Assembly: GCA_025457915.1 (NCBI GenBank)
Contig: JALOTL010000020.1
Span: forward strand, 1 to 56,961
Reading direction: 5' to 3'
DNA from: Spirochaetota bacterium
GTDB lineage: Bacteria > Spirochaetota > UBA4802 > UBA5550
DNA length: 56,961 nucleotides
Position numbers and translations under genes: made by a program. Shown piece after piece: positions 10,000 to 53,695 of this stretch (the stretch's first letter is position 1; each line of letters opens with the position of its first letter). The notes beneath the pieces were generated by a model that saw only the letters and a program-made list of their open reading frames with translations, had not been told where the DNA came from and ran no database searches.

Positions 10000-10186
10000 T
10001 GCCGATTTTTATTAAACATCCATGTTTAAATCGGCATTCGCAACCTCCTGTTGCTCGATGTTCCATTGCGGCCGCTTCACTGCATCCATTTAGTCGCGGC
10101 ATCAGTGCTTCCGTGCACGCCATGTAAAATAACTGATAAAATCAGGAATTATGATTTATAATACCAGGGAAACTCCTGATTTTTTT
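10000..10186 (+). ncRNA. Candidate structured RNA or attenuator leader
   Basis: This non-coding stretch begins with a long hairpin. TGCCGATTT (10000-10008) pairs with AAATCGGCA (10028-10036), with a nested AAACAT/ATGTTT stem. A GCAAC/GTTGC stem-loop follows (10040-10054). After GC-richer sequence it ends in an intrinsic terminator: AAATCAGGA (10138-10146) against TCCTGATTT (10174-10182), with T's running to 10186. The following HDOD gene starts 72 bases later. It could be a small RNA of about 190 bases or a regulatory leader. It does not match a riboswitch consensus that I know. Confidence 0.4.
10138..10186 (+). terminator. Intrinsic terminator upstream of the HDOD gene
   Basis: A 9-bp perfect stem (AAATCAGGA with TCCTGATTT) has a 27-base loop and ends in a T run. 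No protein gene precedes it on this strand for over 2 kb, so it must end a non-coding transcript or attenuate the next gene. Confidence 0.55.
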
Positions 10187-10258
10187 ATTTATTTTCAAAA
10201 TCGACGAGGCGGGGGATTGTTATTTTATACTTGACTCTTTAGGGGTGTTTTTTAAATT

Positions 10259-33072: not shown

Positions 33073-33888
33073 TTAATCGTCGTGCCTGTGATAGAGATAG
33101 TGTGAATGGACGTGCCTGTGCAGTTTTTTCCCGTGCCTGTGCACGTGCTCATGGACCAGGTTGTTTTTCCTGAGGAGCTCCGTGTCCCTGAGTATGGCGT
33201 CAACGCTGCCGACCTTTTCTATCCCGTGGTTTTCGGACATTACCGCTATCCTGGGCTCCAGGTGCCCTATGAGCTCGAGGTCGTGCGTGGCTATCACTAT
33301 GGTTTTCCCGGCCTCGTGAAGGGAGAGCATGAGGTCGGTCAGGAAGGACTCCGTCCCCAGGTCCAGGCCTCCGGTCGGTTCGTCCAGCAGCAGCACCTCG
33401 GGGTTCATAGTAAGGACGGACCCTATGGCCACCTTCTTTTTTTCGCCGCCGGAGAGCATATGCACCGGCCTGTCCGCGAGGCGTTCGATGCCGAGCATTT
33501 CCATGGCCTCGCTGCACCTTTCCATGGCCTTGCCTGGGGGTATATCGGTCTGCAGGGGGCCGAACATCAGCTCGTCAAGCACGGTCGGGCAGAAGAGCTG
33601 TACGTCGGAGTTCTGGAAGATGATGCCGACCCTGCTCCTGAAGAAACGGTTGAAGTCCCTGTCTCTCAGGGCCTTGCCGGTGATCTCTTTGCCCCTGAAT
33701 CTGATTTTTCCGGATGACGGCATCAGGAGCGCGCACATTATCTGGAGGAGCGTCGACTTGCCGCTCCCGTTCTGACCTATGACGGCGAGCATCTCGCCTT
33801 TCCTGACATCAAGGGAAACGTCGGTAATGGCGGGAATGGTCCCGTGATAGCTGAAGTTTATTTTACTGAGCTCAAATAATTTATCCAT
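33073..33888 (-). CDS. cbiO: ECF nickel/cobalt transporter ATPase CbiO (NikO)
   Basis: A 271-residue ABC ATPase of the energy-coupling factor type. It has Walker A GQNGSGKST, the signature LSGGEKKKVAIG and Walker B VLLLDEPTGGLD. The last 26 residues hold ten His in an alternating pattern (VHRHGKKLHRHVH and so on), a metal-binding tail not needed for ATPase activity. It is last in the operon after cbiM, a small membrane subunit gene and cbiQ. With the hydrogenase and hyp genes nearby and no cobalamin genes, nickel is the more likely cargo, though cobalt cannot be excluded. Confidence 0.92.
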   Translation of the reverse strand: MDKLFELSKINFSYHGTIPAITDVSLDVRKGEMLAVIGQNGSGKSTLLQIMCALLMPSSGKIRFRGKEITGKALRDRDFNRFFRSRVGIIFQNSDVQLFCPTVLDELMFGPLQTDIPPGKAMERCSEAMEMLGIERLADRPVHMLSGGEKKKVAIGSVLTMNPEVLLLDEPTGGLDLGTESFLTDLMLSLHEAGKTIVIATHDLELIGHLEPRIAVMSENHGIEKVGSVDAILRDTELLRKNNLVHEHVHRHGKKLHRHVHSHYLYHRHDD

Positions 33889-33894
33889 TGGACC

Positions 33895-34746
33895 TCATAA
33901 CGCGGATATTATTATTCCGGGGGCCATGACCGCGGCGAAGAGGGCCAGGTCCGCGGCCGTGATCCTGTCCGTAAGGTAAAAACTGACGCTGCCGGAAAAG
34001 CCCCTCGCCACCATGGCCCTGTAGACCTCCTCGTAGGCGGCGGTCGATTTTTTAAATACCAGGAAGGTCCTTCCGGCGATGATGTCCCTTATTTCCGAGC
34101 CCTTAACATTCCCTATCAGCCTGCTTTTCAGGGCGAGATAAAAATCCTCTATCGTTTTCGAAAGGATGAATATGTATTTGTATGAAAGAAGCACGATCAT
34201 TATGAAGGAATCCGGGACCCTGAAGGTCTTCAGCGATTTCATGAGATCGTAAAATGGCGTCGTGAATATTATCAGCAGTGAAACCGATACGGAATTCATC
34301 ACCCGCAGGCACAGCATCGCCACGCCGCTGAGTCCCTCCCTGGTGATCCCTATCTCCGCGGGTATCCTGTATATCCAGAACTGCCTCGCGCCGTCAAGCC
34401 TGGCCAGGTGCAGGACGATCTCGCCGTCCGTTATAATGTTCAGGGAGGAGGGCAGGGCGACGAGAAATCCGAAAAAGAACCCGGCGAATAAAATTTTTTT
34501 ATAGATCCTGAACAGGTCGAGTCTTGAAACTGTTATGAAAATGAACATGATCAGGAACAGGAAAGCCTCGGAGGAGACGTCTTTTTTAATGCTGATGAGC
34601 AAGATGTTGAATATGAAGAATACTAGCTTCAGGCGCGGATTCAGCCTCTGGAACAGTCCGTTTTTTTTTGACGTTTCCCATTGTACGTAATTGGCCCCGA
34701 CTATTTCGGCAAGGGATTTAAGGCTTTTATCGATAAAATTAAACAC
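33895..34746 (-). CDS. cbiQ: ECF transporter transmembrane subunit CbiQ (NikQ)
   Basis: A 283-residue membrane protein that couples CbiO ATPase action to CbiM. It has the CbiQ start (NPRLKLVFFIFNILLISI), five to six helices, and the cytoplasmic helix with the ATPase-contact motif in KSRLIGNVKGSEIRD. The start is GTG 34746, with AAAGGAGG four bases upstream. That site lies in the loop of a perfect 10-bp hairpin, and the GTG lies in the hairpin arm, implying control of translation. It is 6 bases before cbiO. Confidence 0.9.
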   Translation of the reverse strand: MFNFIDKSLKSLAEIVGANYVQWETSKKNGLFQRLNPRLKLVFFIFNILLISIKKDVSSEAFLFLIMFIFITVSRLDLFRIYKKILFAGFFFGFLVALPSSLNIITDGEIVLHLARLDGARQFWIYRIPAEIGITREGLSGVAMLCLRVMNSVSVSLLIIFTTPFYDLMKSLKTFRVPDSFIMIVLLSYKYIFILSKTIEDFYLALKSRLIGNVKGSEIRDIIAGRTFLVFKKSTAAYEEVYRAMVARGFSGSVSFYLTDRITAADLALFAAVMAPGIIISAL

Positions 34747-34776
34747 CGGGCCTCCTTTTAATAAAACCCGGTGTTT
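34741..34776 (-). promoter_or_regulatory. RNA hairpin enclosing the cbiQ ribosome-binding site
   Basis: AAACACCGGG and CCCGGTGTTT form perfect 10-bp arms around a 16-base loop. On the minus-strand RNA, the loop presents AAAGGAGG and the 3' arm contains the GTG start of cbiQ. No T run follows, so it is unlikely to be a terminator. Confidence 0.7.
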
Positions 34777-34800
34777 AATTTAATAGCCGGAGTGTTCGTG

Positions 34801-35136
34801 TCATTCATTTTTTTTAACTAGGAGCCTGGACAAAAGATAGAGCAGGCCGCCGCAGACGATGATCCCGATCGCCCCGGACAGCATGTAGGACAGCGCCTGT
34901 ACCATGAATGTGGATTTTTCATCTCCCAGGTTGTAGTCCGGGATCGGGGCCTTCCAGATTTCCGAGTCCTTTTCCATGCCTGCGGGAACGTATCCTATCA
35001 TCTCCTTTATCTTGTCCTTCGACCATTCGCCCCATGCCTCTCCCGCCTTCATCAATTCAGGGAGTTTGATCCCTATGGGGGATACGACGGCCATGACCAC
35101 CAGTCCGATAAGCAGTTTTTTCTGAAAGCTGTTCAT
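34801..35136 (-). CDS. CbiN/PDGLE-like small subunit of the nickel ECF transporter
   Basis: A 111-residue protein with an N-terminal helix (LLIGLVVMAVVSPIGIKLPE), a periplasmic segment with AWGEWSKDKIKEMIGYVPAG, and a C-terminal helix (GAIGIIVCGGLLYLLSRLL). This layout is that of the PDGLE/CbiN-type subunit needed by CbiM for metal loading, though the literal PDGLE motif is not present. AAGGAGG, located within the last codons of cbiM, is six bases before the ATG, so it is coupled to cbiM. Confidence 0.75.
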   Translation of the reverse strand: MNSFQKKLLIGLVVMAVVSPIGIKLPELMKAGEAWGEWSKDKIKEMIGYVPAGMEKDSEIWKAPIPDYNLGDEKSTFMVQALSYMLSGAIGIIVCGGLLYLLSRLLVKKNE

Positions 35137-35137
35137 G

Positions 35138-35815
35138 TTATTCCTCCTTCATGGCGTGGATGGACGCCGGATCGCTGATCAGGAAAAATTTTAAAATTAC
35201 CGCGGTCACCAGACCCTCGATGATGCCGAAGAGCAGGAGGTGCTCCAGTGCCATCGCCGGGACCGCGACGGACAGCCCGTAGGGGGCGTAAAGGGGCCTG
35301 CCCGCCTCCGATGCTATGAGGGGCTGGATGCCGAATTCTACGGCCGTAAGGAGCGCTGCTACGTTGAGGCCTATATATCCCGCGGCGAACGCAGCGGCGA
35401 TGACCCTTCTGCCTTCCCTGGTTTTTCCTTTTATGAATCTGAACGACCAGTATGAAACGAAAGGTATCACCACGCCCATGTTGAAGCAGTTGGCCCCGAT
35501 CGCGGTTATGCCGCCGTCTCCGAAAATGAGGGCCTGTATGATGAGCGCAACGGACACGGCTATGACCGCGCTCCAGGGGCCGAGAAGTATTGCGATGAGG
35601 CCGGCGCCCACGGCGTGCCCGGTCGTCGCGCCGGGGATCGGCACGTTGAACATCATTATGAGAAAAGAGAAGGCGGAAGCCATCCCCAGGTACGGAATGG
35701 TCTGCGCGGATAAAACCGACCTGATTTTTTTAAGCGCCGCCGCCAGGAAGCCCGCGAACAGCGCGTAAAATGGTATATAGGTCTGAGGACTGAGATAACC
35801 GTCTGGTATGTGCAT
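35138..35815 (-). CDS. cbiM: ECF nickel/cobalt substrate-binding subunit CbiM (NikM)
   Basis: A 225-residue S-component. The N-terminus MHIPDGYLSPQTY has the Met-His pair whose amino terminus and His2 ligate Ni(II) or Co(II) in NikM structures, so this exact start matters. The conserved PGATTGHAVGAGL and FGDGGITAIGANCFNMG loops supply further ligands. It has about seven helices. An AAGGAG lies six bases before the ATG. It is the first transporter gene after the outer-membrane protein gene. Confidence 0.93.
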   Translation of the reverse strand: MHIPDGYLSPQTYIPFYALFAGFLAAALKKIRSVLSAQTIPYLGMASAFSFLIMMFNVPIPGATTGHAVGAGLIAILLGPWSAVIAVSVALIIQALIFGDGGITAIGANCFNMGVVIPFVSYWSFRFIKGKTREGRRVIAAAFAAGYIGLNVAALLTAVEFGIQPLIASEAGRPLYAPYGLSVAVPAMALEHLLLFGIIEGLVTAVILKFFLISDPASIHAMKEE

Positions 35816-35833: not shown

Positions 35834-36754
35834 TTAAAATCTTATCGTCACTCCGGACATTGCCGAGTAATCAGTTTCGGCCTTCGTCAATCCGTATTTG
35901 AAGCCCGCGTCGAAGTCGAAATTTTCGGTCGGCGACCAGATGAAGCCCCCCAGGACGAACACCGGAGGCATGCCGGTTATCCTATCCGGGTCCCGCGGGT
36001 CCCGCCTGGTGAGGTTTACCCTTGTGCTTTTTTCGGGGTTCCTTTCAGCGCCTGTATTGGCAACAAGTCTGAACCCCTTGACCAGTTCGAACTCGCATGC
36101 GGCGGAAGCGTGCCAGATGTCCTTTTTTTCGTGGACCGTATTTTCATTTCTGATGTATCCAAGGTTGACATGTATGGTGAAGGGTTCCAGGTTTATCGTC
36201 GTTATCAGGAATCCGTATGCTCCGAATTTCCCGGCGCCGAGGTCGCCTCCTGTCGGAACTGAAATGCCGGGCTTCAATGCGAAATTGAATCTGCCCGATT
36301 CCAGAAAGTTCCATTTCAGCTCAACAGAATTGTCGCCGAACCCGGACTCGGTGCTCGTGGTCCTTTTAAAAAGCGGTGCCCAGTCGTCATAGGTGGCCGC
36401 GATGAAGGCCTTCAAGTCGTCGGAACCGGCTTCCTTATTGAATAACCCAATGATCGGATATGTCCTGATCTTGACAGATTGATAAGGGAAATTGACGCTC
36501 AGGTCCAGTTTATCGATAATCCCGTATGTCATGGTGAACTGCGTGGATGTTGAAAACTCTCTTTCCTGGTGCGTTCGCTCGTATCCATATTCTCCGTTGA
36601 ATTCCAGCTCGAACTTTCCTTTTCCCTGGGTGCCGGTGTCGTCCGTTATAAGCGGATGGGCCGCGTGAATGTTTTCATTAATAAAAAGCAATAAAAATGA
36701 CATGACCGTCAGACAATAACAAGCTTTTCTTTTTTTCTTATTTTGATCAAGCAT
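35834..36754 (-). CDS. Outer-membrane beta-barrel of the phenol_MetA_deg/transporter type
   Basis: A 306-residue exported protein with a signal peptide ending near NIHAAHPLITDD. The mature protein is built of alternating beta strands and ends with Phe (TDYSAMSGVTIRF), as outer-membrane barrels do. The start HPLITDDTGTQGKGKFELEF is typical of the MetA-pathway/transporter family. It is the first gene of the nickel transporter operon, 18 bases before cbiM, so it may pass nickel or a nickel complex through the outer membrane. This is context-based inference; family members have varied or unknown substrates. Confidence 0.75.
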   Translation of the reverse strand: MLDQNKKKRKACYCLTVMSFLLLFINENIHAAHPLITDDTGTQGKGKFELEFNGEYGYERTHQEREFSTSTQFTMTYGIIDKLDLSVNFPYQSVKIRTYPIIGLFNKEAGSDDLKAFIAATYDDWAPLFKRTTSTESGFGDNSVELKWNFLESGRFNFALKPGISVPTGGDLGAGKFGAYGFLITTINLEPFTIHVNLGYIRNENTVHEKKDIWHASAACEFELVKGFRLVANTGAERNPEKSTRVNLTRRDPRDPDRITGMPPVFVLGGFIWSPTENFDFDAGFKYGLTKAETDYSAMSGVTIRF

Positions 36755-36800
36755 AATTTTATAACCTCTTTGTGCGTTTAGTAATATTTTTTATAATTTT

Positions 36801-36830
36801 ATAATACTTAACGACACAAAAAAGTTTCAA
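36801..36830 (-). promoter_or_regulatory. Promoter of the nickel-uptake operon
   Basis: On the minus strand a TTGAAA -35 box is followed after 18 bases by a TATTAT -10 box; each matches consensus at five of six positions. The outer-membrane protein ATG is about 47 bases downstream. Confidence 0.6.
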
Positions 36831-36879
36831 TAATATTAATTCAATAAAATTATGCTTTTAATGTTATTTTTTTAAATTT

Positions 36880-36893
36880 ATTATACGTATAAT
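36880..36893. promoter_or_regulatory. Palindrome upstream of the nickel operon
   Basis: ATTATACGTATAAT is a perfect 14-bp palindrome about 50 bases upstream of the predicted -35 box. It could be an operator for a metal regulator such as NikR or a Fur relative, but it does not match a well-known NikR consensus. Confidence 0.35.
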
Positions 36894-36932
36894 TGTGCAG
36901 ATAATCAACTTAATACAGAAATTTTTGAGGTT

Positions 36933-51107: not shown

Positions 51108-52790
51108 ATGAAGGCTGCAGAAAACATATCAAAAAAGCTGAAGGACAGGTTCGGCGCCAGCGTCGTCAAGACCGAGAGCCCTTACGACTCCAGGCTTTTC
51201 GTGGAAATAAAGAAGGAGGCCGTGAAGGAGATCTCGAACGAGCTCATAGCGCTCGGCGCGAGATACCTGGTCGGCGTCGGATACGACAGCATAAAGAGGG
51301 ACGGAAACCTGGGGATGGTCCATACCTTTTCCTTCGACAGGGACGACCTTTTCGTGTGCATTAAGATGGCGGCCCCGGCCGACAGCCCGGTGTTCGATTC
51401 CATCACTCCGGACATCCCCAACGCCGGATGGTCCGAGAGGGAATACATGGACCTGCTCGGCATGAAGTTCACAGGGCACCCCAAGCCGAAGAGGCTTATA
51501 CTGGCGGACGACTGGCCCGAGGGAATCTATCCCCTCAGGAAGGAGGTCCCCCACAACCTGATGCCTCCCGCGGCGGAGGACGTCGCCTACCAGCTCGACG
51601 AGGCGCCTGAGGGCACCACGACCGTGCCGATAGGCCCGTTCCATACATGCCTTCACGAGCCTGCCCACTTCGCGGTTTACGTGGACGGCGAGACGATCAA
51701 GGGCTGCGACTACAGGGGTTTCATGACCCACAGGGGGATCGAGAAGCTCTGCACCACGGAGGTCAGCTACAACGAGGTGCCGTTCATAGCGGAAAGGATA
51801 TGCGGGATCTGCGGATCGGTCCACGCGACGTCCTATTCCCAGGCTGTCGAGCTTGCTGCCGGGCTCAAGATCTCCAGGAGGGCCGAGTTCATAAGGACGA
51901 TAATGCTCGAGATCGAGAGGCTCCATTCCCATCTCCTCTGGCTGGGCGTCGCGGGCCACCTGATAGGCTTCGACACTGTCTTCATGCAGGCATGGAGGAT
52001 CAGGGAGCGCATAATGTGGCTGGCCGAGAGGATAACGGGAAACAGGAAGACCTACGGAATGATAGTAATCGGCGGGGTGAGAAGGGACCTCACGCCGGAG
52101 AACATACAGGAGCTCCTCGACGTGTTGAAGAAGGTCGAGGAGGAGATGCTTGTGGTGCAGAAGGCCATCATAGGCGACACCGCGATACACAAGAGGACCA
52201 GGGGAGTGGGATGCATAACGAAGGAAGAGGCCGTGAAATGGAGCCTCGTGGGACCGGTCGCCAGGGCAAGGGGAGTCGACATCGACACGAGGCGCGACCA
52301 TCCCTACGCGGCCTACGACGAGATGAAGTTCGACGTGCCGGTCTTCGATTCATGCGACGTGTGGGCGACCGTGCTTGTGAGGATAGTCGAGACCTTCGAG
52401 GCGATCAAGATAATCAGACAGGCGGTCGACAAAATGCCGGCCGGCCCGGTAATGACCGAGTTCGACGAGGCAGTAAAGCCGCTGGTCCATTCCATATCCG
52501 CGGTCGAGGCGCCGCGCGGCGAGGTGGTGCACTACGTCATAACCGGCGAGGATAACAGGGCCGACCGATGGAGGGTGAGGGCCCCGACCTATCCGAACCT
52601 CCAGGGTGTGCCGATGATGCTCCTCAACGACCAGTTCGCCGACTTCCCTATTATACTCGGGAGCATCGACCCGTGCTTTTCGTGCACGGACAGGGTCGAG
52701 GTGGTGGACGTCAGGAGCGGCAGGGTTTCCGTGGTGGGCAGGAACGAGCTCGAGGAGCTGTCCCGCAAGAAGAATACGGGGGTGAATTGA
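51108..52790 (+). CDS. hycE: Group 4 [NiFe] hydrogenase large subunit (HycE/HyfG type)
   Basis: A 560-residue catalytic subunit, with a NuoC-like domain (about 1-130) fused to the NuoD-like large subunit. Nickel ligands are intact: RICGICGSVH (Cys232, Cys235) and DPCFSCTDR (Cys523, Cys526). Residues 530-560 follow the DPCxxC motif and would be removed by the HycI-type protease, probably after Arg529, as in E. coli HycE. It should make or oxidise H2 while coupled to the membrane arm. It is closest by layout to formate hydrogenlyase group 4a enzymes. GGGGTGG precedes the ATG. Confidence 0.95.
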   Translation: MKAAENISKKLKDRFGASVVKTESPYDSRLFVEIKKEAVKEISNELIALGARYLVGVGYDSIKRDGNLGMVHTFSFDRDDLFVCIKMAAPADSPVFDSITPDIPNAGWSEREYMDLLGMKFTGHPKPKRLILADDWPEGIYPLRKEVPHNLMPPAAEDVAYQLDEAPEGTTTVPIGPFHTCLHEPAHFAVYVDGETIKGCDYRGFMTHRGIEKLCTTEVSYNEVPFIAERICGICGSVHATSYSQAVELAAGLKISRRAEFIRTIMLEIERLHSHLLWLGVAGHLIGFDTVFMQAWRIRERIMWLAERITGNRKTYGMIVIGGVRRDLTPENIQELLDVLKKVEEEMLVVQKAIIGDTAIHKRTRGVGCITKEEAVKWSLVGPVARARGVDIDTRRDHPYAAYDEMKFDVPVFDSCDVWATVLVRIVETFEAIKIIRQAVDKMPAGPVMTEFDEAVKPLVHSISAVEAPRGEVVHYVITGEDNRADRWRVRAPTYPNLQGVPMMLLNDQFADFPIILGSIDPCFSCTDRVEVVDVRSGRVSVVGRNELEELSRKKNTGVN

Positions 52791-52792
52791 AT

Positions 52793-53695
52793 ATGAAGAC
52801 CGCATACATTTTCGTGAATATAGCGCTCTTTCTGCTGCTCGCGCCGCTTTTCGAGGGCATAATCAGGAAACTCACGGCCAGGGTGCAGTCCAGGCAGGGG
52901 CCCCCGGTTTACCAGCCTTACCTGGACATACTCAAACTGCTCGGCAAGGAAACTATAAATTCGGCCGACAACTGGGGGTTCAAGATAGCCCCGGTAATGG
53001 CCTTCGCTTCGATCATTTCCGTGATAGCGTTCCTGCCGCTGGGGTCCAGGGCGAACGCCCTCTCCGGATACGCGGACGTCATCACGGTGATATACCTCCT
53101 GACGCTCGGCGGCGTTTCGATACTTCTCGGCGCCCTCTCCAGCAGGAACACCTTCGCGATGATCGGGGCGAGCAGGGAGATGGTCACCATGATCATGGTG
53201 GAGCCCGTGCTTGCGATGACCTTCATACTGGGCGCGGTAAAGGTGAAGAGCCTCGGCATTGACGCGACCGTGTTCAGCGTCGGGAATTCCGGGTACAACT
53301 GGTCCGTGTTCCTGATGCTGGCCGTGTACCTGCTGGCCCTCCAGGCCTTCGTGGGAAGGCAGCCCTTCGACATAGCCGAGGCAGAGATCGAGATCCTCGA
53401 GGGACCGCTCGTCGAGTACAGCGGGCCGGGATACGGTCTTTTCAAATATACCAAGATGCTGAAACAGATGTTCTACGCGGCCCTCTTCGTGGCCGTGTTC
53501 CTCCCGGGCTTCAACACCGGCTTCTACGCCGCCGACCTGGCGATACAGGTGGGCTTCATCGCGCTGGTGTTCGTGTTTATAGCCCTGATCGGGGCGACCA
53601 ACCCGAGGCTCAGGATAGACCAGGCGATAAGGTATTACTCGGTGATGATATTGCTGGCCCTGTGCGCGGTGGGACTGTCGGCGTACGGAATCTAA
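52793..53695 (+). CDS. hycD: Membrane subunit HycD/HyfC (NuoH family)
   Basis: A 300-residue NuoH-like protein that links the hydrogenase arm to the membrane pump. It has about eight helices. The conserved loop ARVQSRQGPPVYQPYLDILK is the quinone-site-like region, and FVGRQPFDIAEAEIEILEGP is the second, followed by EYSGPGYGLFKYTKMLKQMF. It starts two bases after the large-subunit stop, with GGGGGTGA eight bases upstream. Confidence 0.93.
   Translation: MKTAYIFVNIALFLLLAPLFEGIIRKLTARVQSRQGPPVYQPYLDILKLLGKETINSADNWGFKIAPVMAFASIISVIAFLPLGSRANALSGYADVITVIYLLTLGGVSILLGALSSRNTFAMIGASREMVTMIMVEPVLAMTFILGAVKVKSLGIDATVFSVGNSGYNWSVFLMLAVYLLALQAFVGRQPFDIAEAEIEILEGPLVEYSGPGYGLFKYTKMLKQMFYAALFVAVFLPGFNTGFYAADLAIQVGFIALVFVFIALIGATNPRLRIDQAIRYYSVMILLALCAVGLSAYGI

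Follow-up and report, generated by a model that had tools for sequence, protein, structure and literature searches.

A predicted stem-loop encloses the cbiQ start codon in a CbiMNQO-type transporter operon of a spirochaete

Results

The window, by which we mean the whole 56,961-nt stretch of spirochaete DNA that was analyzed, carries on its minus strand a gene cluster for an ECF transporter of the NikMNQO/CbiMNQO type, with the M, N, Q, and O subunits all encoded together. The first gene is an outer-membrane Phenol_MetA_deg-like gene with an HPLITDD motif (positions 35834 to 36754), followed by the genes for CbiM/NikM, the S component (35138 to 35815; PF01891), a CbiN/NikN-like protein with a PDGLE domain (34801 to 35136; PF13190), CbiQ/NikQ, the T component (33895 to 34746; TIGR02454 and PF02361), and CbiO/NikO, the ATPase (33073 to 33888; ECF ATPase match). 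From the spacing we infer that the M-N-Q-O genes form one transcript. The 54-nt gap between cbiN and cbiQ is the loosest joint in the operon, the others being 1 and 6 nt. It is at this gap that the stem-loop described below is found, and the earlier note correctly placed it at the junction between a CbiM/CbiN-like half (the CbiM and PDGLE/N genes) and a CbiQ/CbiO half (the CbiQ and CbiO genes).

CbiN has been termed cobalt specific and NikN nickel specific (PMC2667541); in our own reading, the PDGLE-type N protein suggests that nickel is the metal transported here. The genome encodes a NikR repressor and large subunits of [NiFe]-hydrogenases, and a membrane-bound energy-converting hydrogenase-like complex is encoded at positions 51700 to 53500 of the same contig. 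A Phenol_MetA_deg-like gene also heads the transporter operon in five relatives, and its product may contribute to nickel uptake at the outer membrane.

Read on the minus strand, positions 34784 to 34733 have the sequence ATTAAATTAAACACCGGG-TTTTATTAAAAGGAGG-CCCGGTGTTTAATTTTAT, that is, an ascending 5' arm (34767 to 34784), a 16-nt spacer (34751 to 34766), and a descending 3' arm (34733 to 34750). The two 18-nt arms match at 94%, and their innermost 15 nt are perfectly paired, giving an inverted repeat of 15 perfect pairs (34736 to 34781). The earlier note had described a 10-bp stem at 34741 to 34776; its arms AAACACCGGG and CCCGGTGTTT, with 16 nt between them, are present, but the stem is longer and comprises 15 to 19 bp. 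The claim that the cbiQ start codon is buried in the 3' arm was borne out: the GTG at 34746 to 34744, which opens the sole CbiQ-coding frame, lies in the descending arm together with codons 2 to 4. The Shine-Dalgarno sequence AAAGGAGG (34751 to 34758), recognized by its sequence, lies within the spacer, 4 nt ahead of the GTG. It had been pictured as presented in the loop, and this holds for its position in the 16-nt spacer but not for its GAGG half, which is predicted to pair with the UUUU of the spacer, leaving an 8-nt loop, AUUAAAAG. The predicted fold of 19 bp with this 8-nt loop has a free energy of −25.2 kcal/mol, compared with −19.3 kcal/mol for the form with a 16-nt loop. The RNA is predicted to be more closed than the 16-nt-loop picture implies, with the Shine-Dalgarno sequence half-paired. 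In the fold prediction, the start codon has a pairing probability of 0.9998, and in the model the opening of positions −14 to +15 around the start would require about 23.0 kcal/mol, a cost that falls to 9.7 kcal/mol when the 5' arm is occupied beforehand.

How unusual this structure is was assessed in a 1.19-Mb sample of the same genome. A lone 10-bp repeat would be unremarkable: repeats whose length is exactly 11 bp number 31 in the sample, and those of exactly 12 bp number 25. Perfect repeats of at least 15 bp with a loop of 3 to 24 nt occur 18 times in the 1.19 Mb and not at all in two Markov-shuffled copies, and the cbiQ repeat is the only one covering a start codon among the 102 perfect repeats of at least 11 bp in the sample. 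Most of the GC-bearing repeats of the sample lie between convergent or codirectional genes, which is a terminator-like placing. When 974 start regions taken from rough in-house gene calls were compared, that of cbiQ ranked 2nd by shuffle z-score and 22nd by raw energy; its z-score varied between −3.6 and −4.75 with the stretch folded. The repeat is single copy in the genome even when 3 mismatches are allowed, which rules out a REP/MITE-type repeat.

The operon is present in eight genomes of the order, this one and seven relatives, and the orthologous operons belong to six species of a neighboring genus and one from another family in the order. One of them is on the spirochaete metagenome-assembled genome JAFGJX010000126.1, and a scan of named genomes for the operon returned one locus, a duplicate of that of relative G019. 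The pairing conservation that the earlier note had proposed to look for in relatives is absent. None of the seven orthologous junctions has a counterpart of the start-burying stem, which occurs in this genome only among the eight; consensus folding of the eight junctions gave zero pairs. The N-Q gap, 54 nt here, measures 114 nt in G015, 111 in G019, 57 in G017, 36 in G018, 20 in G002, and 19 in G012; for G036, a gap of 16 nt was counted from the sequence, and the value returned by our script, which used a different N frame, was set aside. Two of these gaps contain strong hairpins of their own upstream of cbiQ, namely CGGGGTTTTCC..GGGAAACCCCG with the U-tract TATTTTTATTT in G015 and GCGGGGTTTTTCC..GGGGAGACCCCGC with the U-tract AATTTTTCC in G019. 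Both are single copy, leave the start codon outside, and do not align with the stem in the window. The shuffle z-score for positions −75 to +20 is −4.75 in the window, −4.17 in G015, and −6.54 in G019, and ranges from −1.1 to +1.8 in the others; a strong N-Q hairpin is missing in five of the seven relatives. Three of the four N-Q gaps longer than 50 nt (those of the window, G015, and G019) hold a strong hairpin, a post hoc grouping of few genomes, and with the same reservation the common tendency is a strong stem-loop in a long N-Q gap, not a start codon within a stem. The cbiQ start in the window lies one codon upstream of that of the relatives (VFNFID versus MNFID or MTFID).

The start-burying stem-loop is thus real, statistically striking, and lineage specific. 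A palindrome that arose in this lineage, for example, by templated mutation, and is tolerated with no selected role would be single copy and absent from seven relatives, as observed, and perfect arms are the expected trace of a recent templated event. We nevertheless consider such a neutral origin unlikely, since so stable a structure covering a transporter gene's start should come at a cost in expression, and since strong hairpins recur in three of the four long junctions.

Could the structure act on transcription instead? A weak partial intrinsic terminator, or a stabilizer of the 3' end of the cbiMN message, would have the burial of the start as a by-product of U-rich cbiQ codons that serve as the terminator tail. 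Termination inside an operon as a means of setting expression is known (PMC10450193). The GC-rich stem CACCGGG..CCCGGTG followed by the tail TTTAATTTTATCG scores 14 to 18, a weak value, on a d'Aubenton-Carafa-type scale. Hairpins at gene ends in the genome have a median score of 37.5 and a lower quartile of 16.2, and the 95th percentile inside genes is 2; the element of the window is near the former quartile and above the latter percentile. In G015 and G019, the hairpins of this gap with their U-tracts score 18.6 and 8.4, respectively, and among codirectional gaps of 35 to 70 nt in the sample, 3 of 80 score at least 14. However, the loop, of 8 nt (if G-U pairs are counted) to 16 nt, is long for a genome in which most GC-rich repeats have loops of 3 to 8 nt, the U-tract is broken by AA and is part of conserved codons (N-F-I), a standard terminator scan did not call the hairpin, and five of the eight orthologous junctions have no such hairpin. 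A terminator or stabilizer is possible but rather doubtful. Both termination and start burial would lower cbiQO relative to cbiMN.

The earlier note also considered a switch that opens or closes the cbiQ start in response to Ni2+ or Co2+, temperature, or a protein. Its position in a metal-uptake operon speaks for such a switch, and nothing else does. The start codon would stay closed at any physiological temperature, with a pairing probability in the model of 0.96 even at 90°C. As to metal sensing, a comparison of the junction with Rfam gave no hit above threshold, and even at an E-value of 5 nothing relevant appeared; no aptamer-like sequence is conserved among the orthologous junctions, the stem is a plain helix that does not resemble an aptamer, and the genome encodes NikR. 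We consider a sensing switch very improbable; NikR acting at the promoter would be the simpler explanation for metal control.

The presence of NikR and the form of the repeat, a dyad with a 16-bp spacer, also raise the question whether the repeat is an operator on the DNA, bound by a repressor such as NikR. This seems extremely improbable for an element that lies inside the operon, is single copy even with 3 mismatches allowed, and has arms far longer than operators need; the half-sites are presumably also unlike NikR sites. Upstream of the operon in six relatives (loci L094 to L099, from G012, G015, G002, G017, G018, and G019), we noticed by eye a conserved motif, TTGACAGTA[AGT]CAC, followed by an AT-rich spacer and a second CAC box, as in TTGACAGTAACACCAATAGTATAAAAATAACAC. 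This promoter-proximal motif may represent an operator of the NikR type that overlies the promoter. It is not evident upstream of the operon in the window (36755 to 36932), and a dyad search upstream of the operon returned no NikR-type dyad common to more than two genomes.

Discussion

Why would a transporter operon hide the start of one of its genes in a stem? We tentatively favor the hypothesis that the stem-loop damps cbiQ-cbiO relative to cbiM-cbiN, chiefly through concealment of the cbiQ start, and that this start is freed mainly by ribosomes arriving from cbiN. A stem of such stability over a start blocks de novo initiation. The suggestion of the earlier note that the hairpin could set subunit ratios, which we take to act through lower cbiQ translation, follows from the predicted stability of the stem over the ribosome site (about 23 kcal/mol) and has become our leading reading, with folding in the cell, the reduction of cbiQ, and the opening by upstream ribosomes all presumed. 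What counts against it is that the start-burying form is found in one genome only and that the hairpins of G015 and G019 leave the start free, so any common feature would not be start occlusion.

Under the damping hypothesis, the cbiQ start on free RNA would be shut in the descending arm despite a strong Shine-Dalgarno sequence, and ribosomes coming from cbiN would run into the ascending arm and free the descending one. The cbiN stop is 16 nt short of the hairpin, and therefore a ribosome terminating there is not expected to be at the stem. Ribosomes could enter the arm by restarting at an ATGA/ATGAATGA that overlaps the cbiN stop. Two short frames from the cbiN stop enter the 5' arm and are candidates for this route: MNDTNTPAIKLNTGFY (34758 to 34808, minus strand), whose ATG overlaps the end of cbiN and which runs through the 5' arm to a TAA (34760 to 34758) that abuts the Shine-Dalgarno sequence, and MTRTLRLLN (34775 to 34804, minus strand), which begins with the ATGA overlap with the cbiN stop and, with its own stop, ends inside the 5' arm. 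Alternatively, ribosomes might slip on the run of eight A residues ahead of the cbiN stop. Either way, a ribosome would be left beside the Shine-Dalgarno sequence and could initiate at cbiQ, a coupling by unfolding or reinitiation, and weak transcription termination might add to the damping of cbiQ-cbiO.

The short frames themselves are weak evidence because they are short (9 to 16 codons) and have no Shine-Dalgarno sequence; their openness is near chance, and their peptides are not conserved. A more elaborate scheme, a translational attenuator in which ribosomes leaving cbiN enter a leader frame of 9 to 16 codons that crosses the ascending arm, with the fraction entering or pausing there setting the amount of energising module per metal-binding module, would draw on these frames and appears to us improbable. 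A run of 6 to 8 A residues just ahead of the cbiN stop is seen in most relatives (positions 34801 to 34820 in the window). It is a possible slippage site, and by the sequence a −1 slip in the window would read into the 16-codon frame; it may also merely encode a lysine-rich tail. Separately, a candidate internal promoter, ATGACA-N16-TAAATT (34804 to 34777), which would give an RNA with part of the 5' arm missing, was at chance level and was rejected.

Coupling by unfolding or reinitiation is known for phage f1 VII/IX, MS2 coat/lysis, and E. coli atpHA (reviewed in PMC12548453). As in unfolding coupling, the downstream start in the window lies in a predicted stem whose other arm is intercistronic and which would have to be opened by upstream ribosomes; the difference is that the upstream gene stops 16 nt before the stem, so that a short frame, reinitiation, or a frameshift would be needed. 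The axe-txe minigene, a 2-codon frame with a measured effect proposed to act via mRNA stability (PMC8708949), is a precedent for the possibility that a tiny frame just upstream of the ribosome site of a downstream gene sets expression, although the frames here are putative, have 9 to 16 codons, and center on a hairpin. With operon-internal partial terminators (PMC10450193), the element shares a structure and a U-rich tail between gene subgroups of one operon, but it differs in its long loop, its interrupted U-tract, and its overlap with the start of the next gene, and that study concerned an archaeon. If the damping is real, one operon would supply the two halves of an ECF transporter, substrate-binding and energising, in unequal amounts through RNA structure alone. 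Starts gated by structure are familiar, and hence the gain would be a further example, from an uncultured spirochaete lineage, with no new principle.

The genome also contains similar dispersed palindromes with loops of 13 to 22 nt (TATAAATTAGATTTTT.., AAAAAACCAGCTT.., and AAAAACCAGGAGT..), most of them intergenic. They fall into three groups, located at L042:17850-17898, L081:15209-15257, L064:409-455, and L066:15471-15511 (group 1), at L064:18407-18454 and L068:6678-6723 (group 2), and at L062:11793-11839, L068:15223-15261, and positions 10126 to 10195 of the window (group 3), and possibly represent a small mobile or repeat family.
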